A stretch of 64,000 nucleotides of DNA from Streptomyces sp. G44 (GCF_016905445.1 NZ_JAFEXF010000013.1:1-64000), one strand, 5' to 3'; shown: positions 32,974 to 43,497, counted from the stretch's first letter. A program made the numbers and translations. Notes: generated by a model from the sequence alone, not told the origin.

Positions 32974-36888
<3,915 letters not shown>

Positions 36889-36901
36889 GACGCGGATCTG
36901 T

Positions 36902-36937
36902 CGAAGGGCGGTCACCTCTTGGGGTGGCCGCCCTTCG
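36902..36937. terminator. Terminator between convergent rpoC and the M48 peptidase gene
   Basis: CGAAGGGCGGTCACC pairs with GGTGGCCGCCCTTCG (15 bp, one wobble) around TCTTGG. It ends 6 nt before the stop of the convergent minus-strand gene, so it can serve both directions. Confidence 0.82.
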
Positions 36938-36942
36938 GCGTT

Positions 36943-37980
36943 TCAGTCCCTGTGCGTTTCGAGGTAGCGCTGAAGGCTCTGAAGCCGGGTGTGGAGGTCC
37001 GGATACGGAGAGAGCAGTGAGACCGCCGGGCGGAACCTGTCGTTGTCGGGCGGTCCGGACTGCTTCGCCTCTGCTCCGTCGACGATGAACCTCTCCAGCA
37101 CATAGGCGAGTTGGGGGCCATAGCCGCGAGCGGCGGCGGAGCGGTCGGCGCGCAGTTCCGCACGCCGCCTGACCGCGGCGAGCAGCGGGGGGACCAGCGC
37201 CAGCAGAAGCAGCCAGGGGAACAGGCAGACCACCAGCAGCGCGAGGAGTGTCGCGATCAGCAGGAGCTGGCTCCTGGCCTTCGTGTTCTTCCTGGTCCGG
37301 ATGGGGCGCGATGGTGACATCAGGGGGTACAGCGCACGCACGGCCCGCCAGATGAGCCGGGCGGGGAGGGCGTACCAAAAGGTCAGCAGCGCCGTCCAGG
37401 AGTGACCGGCCACATGGTGGCCGAGTTCATGGGCGAGCACGGCGGACAGCTGGCCGGGTGGCAGCCGGAGCGCGGCCGATGTCACGGCGACGATGTGGCC
37501 GGCGGCGGCCTCCGCGCTGGGCTTCTCGCTCTCATGGATCCAGAGTTGATACGCGGTGCCGGCCACACCGAATCGAGCGGTGACGTCATGCCAGGAGGGC
37601 GCGAGCCGGTCCTGTTCGGCGAGTGACGGCGGCCTGTGGCCCAGTACATGGCGAGCCAGGAAGGCCTCGGTGGGACGGTGGAGGACCAGTGCGCCGCTGA
37701 GCAGCCAGCTCACGGCAGTCACCCAGGCAGGCAGGCCGGTCCAGCTCTCCACGAGGAAGCCGAGACAGGTCACGGCCACGAGACCGGCGACCGTGTGCGG
37801 CACATGGAGCGCGAGAGCGCTGATGGCCATGACGTCGGCGCGCCGGCGAGGGGCCGCGATGTGGATGCGCCCGGCGGTGGGGCCGGTCCTCGGGGGTGGG
37901 GGAGCGGAGTCCGGCGGGGAGTGGGGGGTTTCCGCCACGGATATGTGCTCGGGGTACTCCGGTTCGTGTGGTCGGGACAT
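36943..37980 (-). CDS. Membrane-bound M48-type zinc metallopeptidase
   Basis: A 345-aa membrane peptidase, last gene of the five-gene minus-strand operon. A Pro-rich cytosolic N-terminus (about 55 aa) is followed by two hydrophobic segments (VAGLVAVTCLGFLVESW and WVTAVSWLLSGALVL), then the M48 domain with zinc motif AHELGHHVAGH. A further strongly hydrophobic pair (LLLIATLLALLVVCLFPWLL) precedes the third-ligand region RRRAELRADRSAA. The substrate is unknown. ATG at 37980 with GGGAGGGG upstream; it starts 17 nt after the SPFH-like gene, so co-transcription is likely. Confidence 0.85.
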   Translation of the reverse strand: MSRPHEPEYPEHISVAETPHSPPDSAPPPPRTGPTAGRIHIAAPRRRADVMAISALALHVPHTVAGLVAVTCLGFLVESWTGLPAWVTAVSWLLSGALVLHRPTEAFLARHVLGHRPPSLAEQDRLAPSWHDVTARFGVAGTAYQLWIHESEKPSAEAAAGHIVAVTSAALRLPPGQLSAVLAHELGHHVAGHSWTALLTFWYALPARLIWRAVRALYPLMSPSRPIRTRKNTKARSQLLLIATLLALLVVCLFPWLLLLALVPPLLAAVRRRAELRADRSAAARGYGPQLAYVLERFIVDGAEAKQSGPPDNDRFRPAVSLLSPYPDLHTRLQSLQRYLETHRD

Positions 37981-37997
37981 GGGTCCCCTCCCTGGGG

Positions 37998-39011
37998 CTA
38001 GGGGTTCTCGGCCGTACGGCATGGGCTTTCGCGCTGCTCGTCGAGTACTGGTGGGAGGGGAGCGACCGACTTGAGCGGCGGATCCTCTCGCGGGTGCGGT
38101 CCTGACCTCACTTGCGTCAGTGCGGACCTGAAGAGGGCAAGGACCAGCTGCTGGGGTTCTTCGAGCTGGTACTTCTCCAGAGGCCCGTCAGGGAGCACGC
38201 GGTCTATGAGCTGGAGCTGGTTCTCGACCTGCTTCAGCTCATCCGCGCGCAGGCAGTCCACCACCAGGTGGGTGTCCTGTGGATGCTCGGACAGGTGGAG
38301 GAGCAAGGCGCTGAGTCCGCCCCGGGCCAGATGGTGCCGGTAGAACGCGATCTTCTTGGCCCTGAGACTCTGTTCCTGCTCGAGTTGCCGCAGCGCCGGG
38401 TCCCGCTCCAGCCGTGCGGTGCCCTCCATCCGGAGGCCCTGGTGCGCCGCGATGTCTGTGGACGTGTCGAGCAGCTTCTGTACAGAGAGTTCGGCGGCCG
38501 CGCTGGACGAGATGGGGAACATACGGGTCGTCGGGCGCATCAGCCGCTGGAGCACCCGGTTCAGCAGGGCCGGAACGTCCCGTTCGTGGCTGACGACGAA
38601 CTGCTCCGGGTCGACCACCTGCCAGGTGAGGTCGAAGGTGGTGTCGAACTGGAAGCTGTCGGCCGCGCTGGGCAGCCGGATGCGGAGGCACAGCGGATGA
38701 ACCCCCATGTCCACCTCGTACACAGCGGTGTGGCCGCGGAGACCGGCCGGGCGCCGCGGGGGTATGTAGGTCTCGTACGTGTCACCTGCCCCGGCAAGGA
38801 CGAGGGCGCAGTCCGGGCGCCCCAGGTGCCGTCTTCCCGGCAGCTCGTATCGCGTCAGATGACGCACTGCCAGCACGGGGTCGGTGATCTCGATGGGCCG
38901 GTCGAGGAAGCTCGAAGGATCCCGTCGTTCGAGTCGTTCGAGTCGTTCGAGCCCTTCGGGCCGGTCGTGCGGTAAAGCCAGCGGATCCCGCTGGTCATCG
39001 CTGTTCGCCAT
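37998..39011 (-). CDS. SPFH/band-7-like protein of unknown function
   Basis: A 337-aa soluble-looking protein. A charged N-terminus has a LER tripeptide repeat (GLERLERLERR), encoded by three 9-nt repeats. The central part (TAVYEVDMGVHPLCLRIRLP, then TTFDLTWQVVDPEQFVVSHERD followed by ALLNRVLQRLMRP) has the order of a band-7/SPFH domain: a beta meander, xVxDPxxF, then a helix. A Leu/Glu-rich helical C-terminus follows. I infer a scaffold role; the family assignment is tentative. The ATG at 39011 (GAGGAG upstream) lies 17 nt after the STAND-like gene. Confidence 0.6.
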   Translation of the reverse strand: MANSDDQRDPLALPHDRPEGLERLERLERRDPSSFLDRPIEITDPVLAVRHLTRYELPGRRHLGRPDCALVLAGAGDTYETYIPPRRPAGLRGHTAVYEVDMGVHPLCLRIRLPSAADSFQFDTTFDLTWQVVDPEQFVVSHERDVPALLNRVLQRLMRPTTRMFPISSSAAAELSVQKLLDTSTDIAAHQGLRMEGTARLERDPALRQLEQEQSLRAKKIAFYRHHLARGGLSALLLHLSEHPQDTHLVVDCLRADELKQVENQLQLIDRVLPDGPLEKYQLEEPQQLVLALFRSALTQVRSGPHPREDPPLKSVAPLPPVLDEQRESPCRTAENP

Positions 39012-39028
39012 GGGGGGCTCCTCGGTGT

Positions 39029-41164
39029 TCATGAGAAAGCTGAGACGGCTGTTCGCAAGCGTTCGGTGACGCCCAGAGGGCTGCCGTCGGCCTCGCGCGC
39101 GGTGCGCAGCAAATAGCCGATCCGGTGTTGGTTGGTGGCAGGGGCGGAAAGGTCGGACAGCAGCAGTGCCAGCGGCTCCTCGACCTGCCGGTCGTGTTCC
39201 GCCACGCGGAGCCACTGCTGCAACCTGTCCAGTGCGCTGTCGGTGTGGGCACGATCGCCCAGGGCGGCACGCCAGAGAGCGACGAGCAGTTCGTCCTCGT
39301 CACTGTTCGGGTCGGCGTGGGCGGCGGCGTGCCACTCCAGGACAAGGGGGCGCTCCGTGCCCTCCACCGTCTCGCGGCAGGCGAGCCCGAAGGCTCGCAG
39401 GACGTGGTCGTGCACGGTGTGGTCGTCGTGGAGCAGTGGCACGAGTTCCCTGAGCACCGGCCCGCGGGCCGCGAGAAGCAACAGCTGGGTGGCCTCGGCG
39501 AGCTGGTTCACCTCCTCCTCCTCGTCGTTCTCCAGGCGTACGGCCTCAAGCAGCGCATCGAGCGCTTGTTCCGGGTGCCTGGGGCCGAGCAGTCCGTAGA
39601 CGCGGATGGCGGTCCAACGGCGGCTGGGGTGCTCCCCGGTGCACCAGGTGTGCAGGATCCGGTGCACGCCCTCCACCTCGAGCAGACCCGCGAGGCTGAG
39701 CGCGTTGGCGGCGGTCAGCCAGCCGTTGTACGACCGTCCGCTGGCCCACGGTTCGATCAGATGGGCCATGGCGGACGAGAGGTCGGCCTTGGCCAGGAGC
39801 GCGGTGGCCGCCGCGGCCCGAGTACGGACCAGGGGGCGGCCGTCGGAGGCAAGTTGCTGGAGCCAGGGAACGAGGGCCGGCCGGGTCGAGGGGTGGACGG
39901 TCCACACTTCGCGCAGCAGCACGCGCGCGGTGTCGGCGTCCTCGAACTCGACGGAGTACTGGGACACCGGACCCCATTCCGTGACCTCGTCCCGCGTGGA
40001 GCCGAGCGCGTGGGCCAGCTCCAGTCGTGAGGGGATGGAGCTGCCGAAGACCGGGATGCGGGGTGCCTCGTGCGGATTGGCCGTCTCCTGGAGCCGGACG
40101 AAGAGGCGGTCGCCGAGCTCGGCGGCGGTGGCGTAGGGAGCACGGTCGAAGACGGCGAGGGAGATCAGGAACGCCTTGTCGCGCAGCTCATCGCCGTCAG
40201 GCTTCTCCGGTGCCGTGAGCCACCGGGTCACCCGGTCCGCCAACGCCGACCGGGCGAAGTCGATCAGCCTGTCCTCGTCGAGCTCACCACGGTGATGAGC
40301 GGCGAGTTGTTCGGCGAACCTGCGTGTCTCGTCGGGCTGGTGGGTGCACGCGATGAACTCCTCGACTGGCTGGGTCCGCCGCAGCTGCTGCCAGGCCTCC
40401 GTCCCCGCCAGGTGGGTGACGTGAGCAGCGAGGATGTCCTCGACCGGTGGCGGCTCCCAGGTGACACAGGGGACGTCGAGCAGCACGGACGACGTCTCCA
40501 CCGTGATCACGCACAGACCTCCGCGCCGCGCCAGTTGCTCCCGCACGCCCAGTACGTGGGGTTCCAGCAGCGGTTTGCTGCGGCTGGTGGTCAGTTCGTG
40601 CAGGAGATAGCCCGGCGCTCCGTCGAGGGCGTCCGGCAGGGCCGCAGGGGCGGTGTCCGGCTCAAGCAGCCGGATCGGTCGGGCACCGAGCCGGTCCAGC
40701 AGCATCAGAGCGGCGGACCTCCGGCCGGTGGCACGGCTGCCCCGGAGGACCACGACGCGTTCGTCACGAAGCAGCGCAAGGGCTTCGTCGAAGCTCGGGC
40801 AGCTCCGGTAGACGGCGGCCAGTTCCTCCAGGTGGTTCTGAGGGATGTGGCCGGACGCCGTACGGAGGGATCCGCTGAAACCCGGTGACCCGAGCTGGAA
40901 GACGACGTCGCCCGAGACGTGGCCGCCCACCACGCCGAATTGATCGCGAGTGATCAGAGTCTCTGGGGTGTGGTCGATGAGGTCGCGGCGGGCGGCCCAG
41001 GCCGGTTGCCGCTCCCCGGGTTCCTGCGTCGACTCGTCCTGCTCCTGTCCTTCGACGGCGGGCTCACCGTCCGCCGGGGCGGCAGTCCTCCCGGGCTTCT
41101 CGGCCTTGTCCGGGCGATCGCCCTTCGACGGCTTCGCGGCCGCGGGCTGCCCCTCCTGGCTCAC
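39029..41164 (-). CDS. STAND-like degenerate NTPase with HEAT-type repeats
   Basis: A 711-aa protein. Order: a charged disordered N-terminus (1-60); the motif QFGVVGGHVSGDVVF at residues 75-89; then a P-loop-like segment VVVLRGSRATGRRSAALMLL near residues 136-155, where the Walker A Lys-Thr/Ser is replaced by Arg-Arg. A Rossmann-like AAA/STAND core with CVITVETSSVLL follows, and from about residue 400 a long alpha-helical HEAT-like repeat region (ARVLLREVW.., TRAAAATALL.., AIRVYGLLG..). A GTG start overlaps the cyclase-like gene stop (GTGA). Family and sensor/scaffold role are inferred. Confidence 0.65.
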   Translation of the reverse strand: MSQEGQPAAAKPSKGDRPDKAEKPGRTAAPADGEPAVEGQEQDESTQEPGERQPAWAARRDLIDHTPETLITRDQFGVVGGHVSGDVVFQLGSPGFSGSLRTASGHIPQNHLEELAAVYRSCPSFDEALALLRDERVVVLRGSRATGRRSAALMLLDRLGARPIRLLEPDTAPAALPDALDGAPGYLLHELTTSRSKPLLEPHVLGVREQLARRGGLCVITVETSSVLLDVPCVTWEPPPVEDILAAHVTHLAGTEAWQQLRRTQPVEEFIACTHQPDETRRFAEQLAAHHRGELDEDRLIDFARSALADRVTRWLTAPEKPDGDELRDKAFLISLAVFDRAPYATAAELGDRLFVRLQETANPHEAPRIPVFGSSIPSRLELAHALGSTRDEVTEWGPVSQYSVEFEDADTARVLLREVWTVHPSTRPALVPWLQQLASDGRPLVRTRAAAATALLAKADLSSAMAHLIEPWASGRSYNGWLTAANALSLAGLLEVEGVHRILHTWCTGEHPSRRWTAIRVYGLLGPRHPEQALDALLEAVRLENDEEEEVNQLAEATQLLLLAARGPVLRELVPLLHDDHTVHDHVLRAFGLACRETVEGTERPLVLEWHAAAHADPNSDEDELLVALWRAALGDRAHTDSALDRLQQWLRVAEHDRQVEEPLALLLSDLSAPATNQHRIGYLLRTAREADGSPLGVTERLRTAVSAFS

Positions 41165-41904
41165 TGCCTCCCGCCTTGCTCCTGGCCGCGGAAGTCGAAC
41201 GAGAGGTCGCCGTTGACATCACCGCCGGCGACCCCGTACTGCGAACCCATGATCTGCGTGCTGCCGCCGGCGGAGGCCGACGAACTGTCCGGGGCAGGAG
41301 AGCCAGGAGAGGGGGCACCGCCGTCTTTGCGCCCGGCCGAGGGGACCCGGTGCAGCCAGGCGGTCGTGGCGCCCTCCTTGGCCTGCACGGCGACCTGATG
41401 GAACTCCTCGGGCCGCACCCCGTGGTGGCCGTGACGCACCACGCCCTGGTACACGCTGTCGGACACGCAGAGAACGCTGCTGCCGTCGGCGGCCTTCAGC
41501 GCTTCTCGCAGGGGGTCGGCGTCAAGGAGCCGGAAGGCGTGGTTCAGGTCCGATCCGACCCAGCCGTTCTCGTCCAGGGCGACATATCCGGCGGCGAGCA
41601 CGATGCGCAACCGGATCTGAGTGCTGCTCGCCATCAGTCGGTTCTTCGCGTGCAGCAGCATCGGGGTCTCGGTGAGCAGCGCCTTGACCAGGGTGGACAC
41701 CGGCACATTGGCGTCGATGAGTTCGACGACGGCGTCTCCCCTGTCGGTGCGGAGCCGTGCCGTCTCGCTGACGCCGGCGACGTTGAGCGTGCCGTCCGCC
41801 ACGTCGTACAGGAGCCGTCGGAGAATCGCCTGCTCGACGTCGTCCCGGGTGCCGAACTTCTCGATGTCGAAGAGCAGGATGGTGCGGTTCACGGGCTCGG
41901 ACAT
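41161..41904 (-). CDS. Class III nucleotidyl cyclase-like protein
   Basis: A 247-aa protein. The first ~175 residues show a cyclase homology layout: TILLFDIEKFG (first metal Asp), RTDRGDAVVEL (second metal Asp after Gly), and VGSDLNHAFRLLD, where NxxxR matches the transition-state Asn/Arg. The adenine-selecting Lys before GD is not conserved (Thr), so product and activity are open. A Ser/Pro/Ala linker then leads to a C-terminal motif QYGVAGGDVNGDLSF (residues 222-236), shared with the STAND-like protein it overlaps. ATG at 41904 with GAGAGG upstream. Confidence 0.7.
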   Translation of the reverse strand: MSEPVNRTILLFDIEKFGTRDDVEQAILRRLLYDVADGTLNVAGVSETARLRTDRGDAVVELIDANVPVSTLVKALLTETPMLLHAKNRLMASSTQIRLRIVLAAGYVALDENGWVGSDLNHAFRLLDADPLREALKAADGSSVLCVSDSVYQGVVRHGHHGVRPEEFHQVAVQAKEGATTAWLHRVPSAGRKDGGAPSPGSPAPDSSSASAGGSTQIMGSQYGVAGGDVNGDLSFDFRGQEQGGRQ

Positions 41905-41992
41905 GTCTGCCTCTCGTCGGTCGGATTGCTCCGTCGACCAGAACCATGGCGGGTCGCAGGCTGTCCTCAGAGGGCCGATGACGCGTACGAAC

Positions 41993-42008
41993 TGTGACCG
42001 TGTGCACA
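41993..42008. promoter_or_regulatory. Candidate CRP-type operator before the cyclase-like gene
   Basis: TGTGA-CCGTGT-GCACA matches the classical CRP site TGTGA-N6-TCACA at 9 of 10 positions. It lies in the 116-nt gap between the Crp-like gene and the cyclase-like gene, about 90 nt upstream of the latter's start. Confidence 0.6.
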
Positions 42009-42020
42009 GAGGGCGCCGCG

Positions 42021-42737
42021 CTACACGGGTTCGCTTCCGGCTATGCGGCGGAGTATGTCCGGCCGGACGACGACGATGCGGCGACGGCTCGTGACGACGA
42101 TCTGCCGGTTCCGTAGCTCCTTCAGGAGCCGGGCGACCGCCTCGCGGGAGGCACCGACCGAACCCGCGAACTCCTGCTGGCTGAGCGGGATGGTCAGTGC
42201 GATGCCCTCTTCGGTCCGGGTGCCGTGGGTGCGCAGGAGGTCGAGGAGCAGGACGGCGAGCCGCTCGCGGACGGAGAGGGCCGCCCACTCCAGTCGGCGG
42301 CGGTCCGTCGAGCGCTGGCGGTCGGTGGCGAGCCCCAGGAGTTTGAGGGCTACCTCGGGGCTTCCCGCGAGGAACCCGGTGAAGCGGCCCTGCTCGATGG
42401 CGACCGCTTCGACCTGCTCCAGCGCGGTCACGGTGGCCGAGCGGCCGCGGCCGCTCAGGGCGGCGCCCTCTCCGATGATGTCGCCGGGGCCCCGCAGAGC
42501 GAGGAGGGCCTCGTAGCCGTTGGCCGCGGTGGCCGTGACCTTGGTCCAGCCCTGGAGGAGCAGCAGCACATGAGCGGAGGGCTCGTCCTGGCGCATGATG
42601 ACCGCACGGGCGGGATAGTGCAGAGGGCGGCCAATGTCCAGCAGAGCGGTGCGGTCGTCCCGCTCCAGTCGCGCGAGGAAGGGCACCCGATCATCGAGGC
42701 CGTCGTCACTCCACACGTGCCCCAGCCCGCCGGTCAT
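42021..42737 (-). CDS. Crp/Fnr-family transcriptional regulator
   Basis: A 238-aa regulator. The N-terminal cyclic-nucleotide-binding domain holds LLLLLQGWTKVTATAANGYE and a phosphate-binding cassette GDIIGEGAALSGRGRSATV with Glu and Arg-Ser in the positions used to bind cyclic nucleotide. The C-terminal winged HTH is IPLSQQEFAGSVGASREAVARLLKEL, matching the Crp recognition helix. ATG at 42737 preferred (purine-rich upstream); an in-frame TTG at 42791 is possible. It is the first gene of the five-gene module, with a CRP-type site between it and the next gene. Confidence 0.9.
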   Translation of the reverse strand: MTGGLGHVWSDDGLDDRVPFLARLERDDRTALLDIGRPLHYPARAVIMRQDEPSAHVLLLLQGWTKVTATAANGYEALLALRGPGDIIGEGAALSGRGRSATVTALEQVEAVAIEQGRFTGFLAGSPEVALKLLGLATDRQRSTDRRRLEWAALSVRERLAVLLLDLLRTHGTRTEEGIALTIPLSQQEFAGSVGASREAVARLLKELRNRQIVVTSRRRIVVVRPDILRRIAGSEPV

Positions 42738-43125: not shown

Positions 43126-43497
43126 GTGCCTACGATCCAGCAGCTGGTCCGTAAGGGCCGGCAGGACAAGGTCGAGAAGAACAAGACGCCCGCACTCGAG
43201 GGTTCGCCCCAGCGCCGTGGCGTCTGCACGCGTGTGTTCACGACCACCCCGAAGAAGCCGAACTCGGCCCTCCGTAAGGTCGCGCGTGTGCGTCTGACCT
43301 CCGGGATCGAGGTCACGGCCTACATTCCGGGTGAGGGACACAACCTGCAGGAGCACTCCATCGTGCTCGTGCGTGGTGGCCGTGTGAAGGACCTGCCTGG
43401 TGTTCGTTACAAGATCATCCGCGGTTCCCTCGACACCCAGGGTGTCAAGAACCGCAAGCAGGCCCGCAGCCGCTACGGCGCCAAGAAGGAGAAGTAA
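43126..43497 (+). CDS. rpsL: 30S ribosomal protein S12
   Basis: A 123-aa decoding-centre protein. The GTG at 43126 gives the standard [12 protein letters not shown] start with CCGGAGAA upstream; the frame is open further upstream but that part is the leader. Streptomycin-resistance positions are wild type: K43 (TTPKKPNS) and K88 (GGRVKDLPG). First gene of the str operon, with rpsG 2 nt after the stop. Confidence 0.97.

Follow-up and report, generated by a model that had tools for sequence, protein, structure and literature searches.

A five-gene cluster on the minus strand of a 64,000 nucleotide (nt) stretch of Streptomyces sp. G44 DNA (the window; cluster at 36,943-42,737) encodes a Crp/Fnr-family regulator, a class III nucleotide-cyclase-fold protein, a STAND/NLR-like protein, an SPFH-like protein and an M48 metalloprotease, and the cyclase C-terminus and STAND N-terminus carry short matching motifs that vary together from locus to locus. 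This motif pattern suggests a receptor that may switch the cyclase on by templated assembly, and the account that we favour, with modest confidence, is a Pycsar-like cyclic-nucleotide alarm that an NLR would gate, that would feed back through Crp and act at the membrane, and that probably serves against stress or viruses.

In nearly all intact cyclases of this type a linker leads into a short, mostly Gly-rich motif at the C-terminal end; a similar motif is present in the disordered N-terminus of most of the STAND proteins. The motif varies by locus (for example GGDQHGVSGGQVTGDVVMGG, GDVVGRDKVV, NINTGTVHGGQ and VDARGAVFGFG), the two partners within a locus being alike. Permutation analysis showed that the similarity between cyclase tail and STAND N-terminus was 71.3 for cognate pairs versus 40.3 (standard deviation (sd) 2.6) for permuted pairs, and 43.3 versus 31.3 (sd 1.6) in the divergent subset, with 0/20,000 permutations as high in either case; the loci compared are related, a kinship that the within-genome and composition controls address in part. 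A control STAND region showed no cognate effect in this test. Against shuffled tails of equal composition, the real cyclase tail scored higher (p<0.01) in 32/46 loci, the window among them, and 8/8 genomes that hold two systems gave higher scores to cognate than to swapped partners. Across the 8.4 Mb Streptomyces-type genome to which the window belongs as contig C44, the cyclase tail matches the N-terminus of the neighbouring STAND protein (Table 1) and no other place. SPFH, Crp and M48 were considered as third carriers of the motif and rejected, as no cognate signal was seen. A second system in the same genome (locus L085, contig C221, 2567-9867) is a divergent crp–cyc–STAND–SPFH cluster with an additional STAND gene. 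Its cyclase and two STAND proteins carry APHG(N/T)(I/V)NTG(T/S/L)V(H/T)GGQ, unrelated to the window motif; the two STAND proteins are possibly two receptors for one cyclase.

Codon comparison of the paired motifs bears on their origin. In L037, L040 and L059 the DNA of the two motif copies is almost the same, identical motif residues sharing codons throughout (29/29, 29/29 and 18/18, respectively), and because the codons are identical at every shared residue this suggests recent gene conversion, altering both partners together. Such conversion is what would be seen if the similarity were a functionless by-product of DNA duplication or conversion across the overlapping cyclase and STAND genes, an explanation that we consider very improbable: different codons are used at 5/11 identical residues in the window and at about half in L046, L049 and L079, the similarity is restricted to the motif segment, and the two STAND proteins of the C221 system carry one common motif. 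The motifs of the window, L046, L049 and L079 diverged long ago, with their similarity kept at the protein level.

Paired termini of this kind are described for BASS, where, according to two reports (PMC7889193, PMC8086366), an effector with a C-terminal motif is encoded next to an NLR with an N-terminal motif, the partner being Bell, less often CHAT or TIR. By sequence, the matching motifs at the cyclase C-terminus and STAND N-terminus in adjacent genes have this BASS-type pair architecture. For the BASS families 1-10 and their NLRs (Dyrka et al. 2020, per PMC7889193 and PMC8086366), the likeness extends to short matching termini, adjacent and often overlapping genes, many motif classes and occurrence in filamentous actinomycetes. 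Unlike in BASS as described there, the partner here is a class III cyclase in place of Bell (or CHAT/TIR), the NTPase is nSTAND3-like with an Arg in its P-loop, the cluster adds Crp, SPFH, PycTM and M48, and an amyloid or beta-arch nature of the motifs is something that we infer by analogy. No cyclase partner for BASS motifs was found in the literature searched, which did not include the original BASS paper.

Single-sequence scans of the cyclase-, STAND- and SPFH-like proteins with Pfam, NCBIfam and PADLOC gave little, and alignments were required; the single cyclase sequence had no Pfam match. A profile built from 40 cyclase sequences matched class III cyclases, Ma1120 included, among solved structures (PDB; 3et6 at 4e-6, 5d0g at 1e-5), and Foldseek analysis of the AlphaFold2 (AF2) model (pLDDT 83, >90 across the core, tail disordered) returned 2bw7 at 2.9e-9, with the top 50 matches all being adenylyl or guanylyl cyclases, so that the fold search called for in the original prediction gave the same class by profile, model and Foldseek. 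The protein comprises a catalytic-like domain (residues 1-188), a disordered linker and the C-terminal pairing motif. The metal-binding Asp residues D13 and D57 are present in 40/40 homologues and R125 in 39/40; N121 is kept in the window and in 22/40 homologues and is Asp in 16/40, and the substrate-Lys position is Thr in the window and Glu in 28/40, Glu being the guanylyl-cyclase state. Sequence and model together assign the second protein to the class III nucleotide-cyclase fold, and its two metal Asp residues are retained. The conservation of D13, D57 and R125, the guanylyl-type Glu, the cyclic nucleotide monophosphate (cNMP) pocket retained by the co-encoded Crp and the PycTM co-encoded by relatives make it improbable that the protein is catalytically dead, acting as a nucleotide-binding or scaffold partner only while Crp responds to the product of another cyclase. 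This alternative draws on the substrate-Lys position (Thr in the window, Glu or Ala in most relatives), on the N121 to Asp change, and on the inactive cNMP cyclase domains reported from related conflict systems (PMC7159879).

The Crp protein was correctly placed by the original prediction, as both family domains were found (Table 1) and its cNMP phosphate-binding cassette (GEGAALSGRGRSA) is intact and accompanied by a winged helix-turn-helix (HTH), with G71, E72, R82 and S83 kept across 45 homologues. The position of the base-contacting Ser128 of E. coli CRP is Asp in 44/45 homologues, a change (S128D) which we take to resemble the guanine-contacting Asp of cyclic-nucleotide-gated channels. 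From this change and the cyclase Glu (28/40), cGMP is predicted as the signal. The sequence CTGTGCACACGGTCACAG is the sole perfect CTGTG-N8-CACAG within the window, and most loci have a CRP-like dyad similarly far from the cyclase start (7.9/10 matches on average versus 6.15 in shuffles), with a variant half-site in divergent copies. This dyad, the paired motifs and the PycTM gene of relatives had all gone unnoticed in the original prediction.

The STAND-like protein has a disordered N-terminal tail containing the pairing motif, an NTPase-like domain (about 106-235), a helical middle and HEAT-like repeats (about 412-711). Matches to nSTAND3 were found in 28/44 homologues and to HEAT_2 in 15/44, and in the AF2 model (pLDDT 85.7) helices and then HEAT-like repeats come after an alpha/beta NTPase-like domain. 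Foldseek matches included SAMD9, ARM/HEAT proteins and the AVAST5 filament, all at low TM-scores. The window P-loop is GSRATGRRS, in which Arg replaces the Walker A Lys, and because this residue is Arg in 38/44 homologues (Lys in 4/44), ATPase activity and ATP-driven switching are doubtful. The STAND NTPase hub of the original prediction is therefore retained as a fold with repeats and is open to doubt as an active ATPase; its link with the cyclase is a paired motif, specific to the two, that had escaped that prediction. The protein is like Avs (AVAST) and SAMD9, both among its Foldseek matches, in joining a P-loop to helical repeats, and unlike them in the low TM-scores (0.2-0.3), the degenerate Walker A and the lack of a fused effector domain.

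Neighbourhood counts were taken over 50 loci from Streptomycetaceae. Crp–cyclase–STAND–SPFH occur in identical order and strand in 38/50, bearing out co-inheritance as a module; same-strand adjacency was counted for crp>cyc in 43, cyc>STAND in 46 and STAND>SPFH in 46, and the 4-nt cyc/STAND overlap in 35/47 measured loci. Because adjacency and overlap recur across loci, the clustering is not due to chance. Most of the exceptions have a truncated contig, a broken gene, a rearranged locus or a displaced crp. In L060 and L061, STAND or adjoining reading frames are interrupted or split and apparently pseudogenised. The STAND gene was matched in 55/150 sampled Streptomycetaceae genomes. A protein search found relatives in Streptomyces and Streptacidiphilus, with the gene set recognisable between rpoC and rpsL where the contig was long enough. 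A wider search (n=250) gave strong matches confined to Streptomyces and two other genera of the class; crp–cyc–STAND–SPFH–PycTM is present at L120 (f3 genome), in the same class and outside Streptomycetaceae. There are two lineages, one at the rpoC–rpsL site with M48 and one of divergent copies at other sites without it. In a set of 16 genomes that lack a close copy, the distance from rpoC to rpsL was measurable in 15 and came to 0.96-1.3 kb in ten. The interval of L132 (G060) holds crp and m48 remnants only, with cyclase, STAND and SPFH not detected there, and is a decaying copy. From the near-empty sites and this remnant it follows that the module is accessory at rpoC–rpsL and able to decay, in agreement with the earlier suggestion that it may not be part of RNA polymerase or ribosome biology. 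The interval may be a general insertion spot, because L127, L139 and L140 carry 2.7-4.7 kb of unrelated DNA there.

The proposed membrane output involves three proteins, two of them in the window. SPFH assignment of the fourth protein is weak: Band_7 was matched by 5/31 homologues (best 6e-5), the window copy had no Pfam match, an SPFH-profile search of solved structures (PDB) matched none, and no transmembrane segment was predicted by hydropathy. What stands of the original SPFH call is thus the Band_7 signal in homologues. The M48 call was confirmed as to family, by profile and by the HELGH motif (with ELRAD and at least three hydrophobic membrane segments by hydropathy), and its place in the module was not: M48 is found only in the rpoC–rpsL lineage and is not core. 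In about 31 loci SPFH is immediately followed by a PycTM gene (~170-180 amino acids; Pfam PF18967 at 1e-13 to 3e-22, and PADLOC PycTM), and 39 loci have one within 6 kb, so the suspected link to conflict systems is upheld in these sibling loci. The idea of a PycTM partner encoded at another site of the genome to which the window belongs was rejected, as the one copy has no linked cyclase; this sole PycTM-domain protein (L086 7216-8085, contig C539) lies beside an FtsK-like transfer gene in an apparent integrative element.

In the favoured mechanism, the STAND-like protein would be a sensor or scaffold (pseudo-NTPase with HEAT-type repeats) that detects a danger cue and clusters, its Gly-rich N-terminal motif templating the matching C-terminal motif of the cyclase, probably in a beta-arch or amyloid-type assembly. 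Templating would bring cyclase subunits together, and class III cyclases work as dimers whose active sites lie where the subunits meet. The cyclic nucleotide would be read by the co-encoded Crp, bound at the CRP-box before the cyclase–STAND–SPFH–(PycTM)–M48 operon to give feedback, and in most relatives also by the PycTM-type membrane effector, and SPFH and M48 may localise or execute a membrane response, like prohibitin/OMA1 or HflKC/HtpX pairings. The step from STAND to cyclase is proposed because of the motif co-variation and the analogy with BASS (PMC7889193, PMC8086366), and the membrane step because PycTM is linked in relatives and because of the biology of Pycsar (PMC11224242). We infer that templating activates the cyclase, and likewise infer the signal molecule, the output and a role in defence or cell death. 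A bolder version, which we hold tentatively and place somewhat short of an even chance, is a prion-like (amyloid-templated) immune receptor in which NLR polymerisation nucleates the class III cyclase through one of several mutually insulated motif classes, matched partly by gene conversion, with execution by PycTM or SPFH–M48 and Crp feedback, such that BASS-type signalosomes and Pycsar would meet in one pathway.

Several points weigh against an NLR-gated alarm. The case is computational throughout, built on sequence and predicted structures. About 13/46 loci, mostly divergent, have no similarity between tail and N-terminus beyond composition. The Walker A Arg, the weak SPFH assignment and the substrate-Lys and N121 positions, which leave cyclase activity and substrate uncertain, have been given above. 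The cyclase had no match to PADLOC PycC models at E<1. PycTM and PycTIR are absent from the window operon, where SPFH and M48 are spaced by 17 nt, and the whole window clade is without PycTM, having either lost it or never had it. The motifs, too, could be ordinary docking peptides. They would then form a conventional non-amyloid interface (beta-augmentation or a short linear motif) through which the cyclase joins a membrane scaffold of STAND and SPFH, as part of a constitutive envelope-stress or developmental regulator that raises no alarm. Cognate co-variation requires binding alone and no templating, SPFH and M48 resemble membrane quality-control pairs, Crp with its operator-like dyad fits transcriptional control, and the module keeps to a single chromosomal site in different genera of the family. 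We nevertheless think such a regulator rather unlikely, given that the motifs are found at the outermost, disordered ends of the proteins, behind linkers of low complexity, like amyloid-signalling motifs, and that the PycTM linkage and the patchy distribution with near-empty sites favour a role in conflict.

Compared with Pycsar (PycC with PycTM or PycTIR), the system is alike in the class III cyclase fold, the PycTM in the gene cluster of most relatives and the presence of a cNMP-binding protein. It differs in having a cyclase outside the PADLOC PycC models, matching motifs and an NLR-like regulator as additions, a Crp regulator in place of PycTIR as the cyclic-nucleotide-binding protein and, in the window copy, no PycTM. 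Links between cNMP cyclases and STAND NTPases by homotypic adaptors have been reported in multicellular bacteria (Kaur et al., PMC7159879, PMC8195603), and in the EAD/STAND/cNMP-cyclase systems described there (VMAP, iSTAND ternary) Band-7, HEAT, peptidase and CRP-like parts recur; those systems have folded effector-associated or death-like adaptors and MoxR-vWA cores, in contrast to the ~25-amino-acid Gly-rich motif here, without a MoxR-vWA core. No description of this gene set was found in a literature search that most subscription papers lay outside, and the same search found no account of a Pycsar-like gene cluster in which a short matched motif ties a cyclase to a STAND protein. If correct, the favoured account would unite NLR/amyloid-type motif signalling with a cyclic-nucleotide (Pycsar-like) alarm in multicellular actinomycetes and suggest how templated assembly could gate a class III cyclase. 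It would also provide natural orthogonal motif pairs, sometimes two per genome, for study of the insulation and co-evolution of assembly motifs, and a function hypothesis for a cluster that is lodged beside rpoC/rpsL in one lineage and whose STAND gene is matched in about a third of the Streptomycetaceae genomes sampled.

The original prediction, which was partly supported overall, gave the layout exactly: five minus-strand genes with gaps of 116, -4, 17 and 17 nt in the order Crp, cyclase-like, STAND-like, SPFH-like and M48 (Table 1), flanked by housekeeping genes. The cluster is convergent with rpoC (plus strand, ending at 36888) and divergent from rpsL (plus strand, starting at 43126). The description of the cluster as bounded by terminators is right for one side only. 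On the M48/rpoC side there is a convincing hairpin of -27.7 kcal/mol (z -5.4; 0/200 shuffles equally stable) without a T-run, likely a bidirectional terminator or insulator; at the opposite end lies a divergent promoter region. Scans of the region found no intrinsic terminators above chance by consensus, no sigma70-type promoters and no Rfam families.

Table 1 Features of the cluster in the window (positions counted from the first nucleotide of the window; aa, amino acids)
Feature	Position	Strand	Basis
Crp/Fnr-family regulator, 238 aa	42021-42737	-	Pfam cNMP_binding 7e-18, HTH_Crp_2 2e-14
CRP-box-like dyad CTGTGCACACGGTCACAG, putative Crp operator	41992-42009	-	about 90-105 nt upstream of cyclase start codon
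Class III nucleotide-cyclase-fold protein, 247 aa	41161-41904	-	profile, AF2 model, Foldseek, conserved residues
Cyclase C-terminal pairing motif (...TQIMGSQYGVAGGDVNGDLSFDFRG)	41182-41256	-	match to STAND N-terminal motif; locus-to-locus co-variation
STAND/NLR-like protein, 711 aa, GTG start	39029-41164	-	nSTAND3 and HEAT_2 in homologues, AF2, Foldseek
STAND N-terminal pairing motif (ITRDQFGVVGGHVSGDVVFQL)	40892-40960	-	48% over 23 aa versus cyclase tail; low confidence/disordered in model
SPFH/Band-7-like protein, 337 aa	37998-39011	-	Band_7 in 5/31 homologues; hydropathy
M48-family membrane metalloprotease, 345 aa (alternative start 38022)	36943-37980	-	Pfam Peptidase_M48 1.1e-12 (above cut-off)
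GC-rich hairpin between convergent M48 and rpoC stop codons	about 36901-36937		folding energy versus shuffles

Divergent systems without M48 at L072, L073, L077, L080 and L081 share a conserved neighbourhood, with genes for a tubulin-like protein, a membrane protein with vWA or both (clusters 12 and 13).

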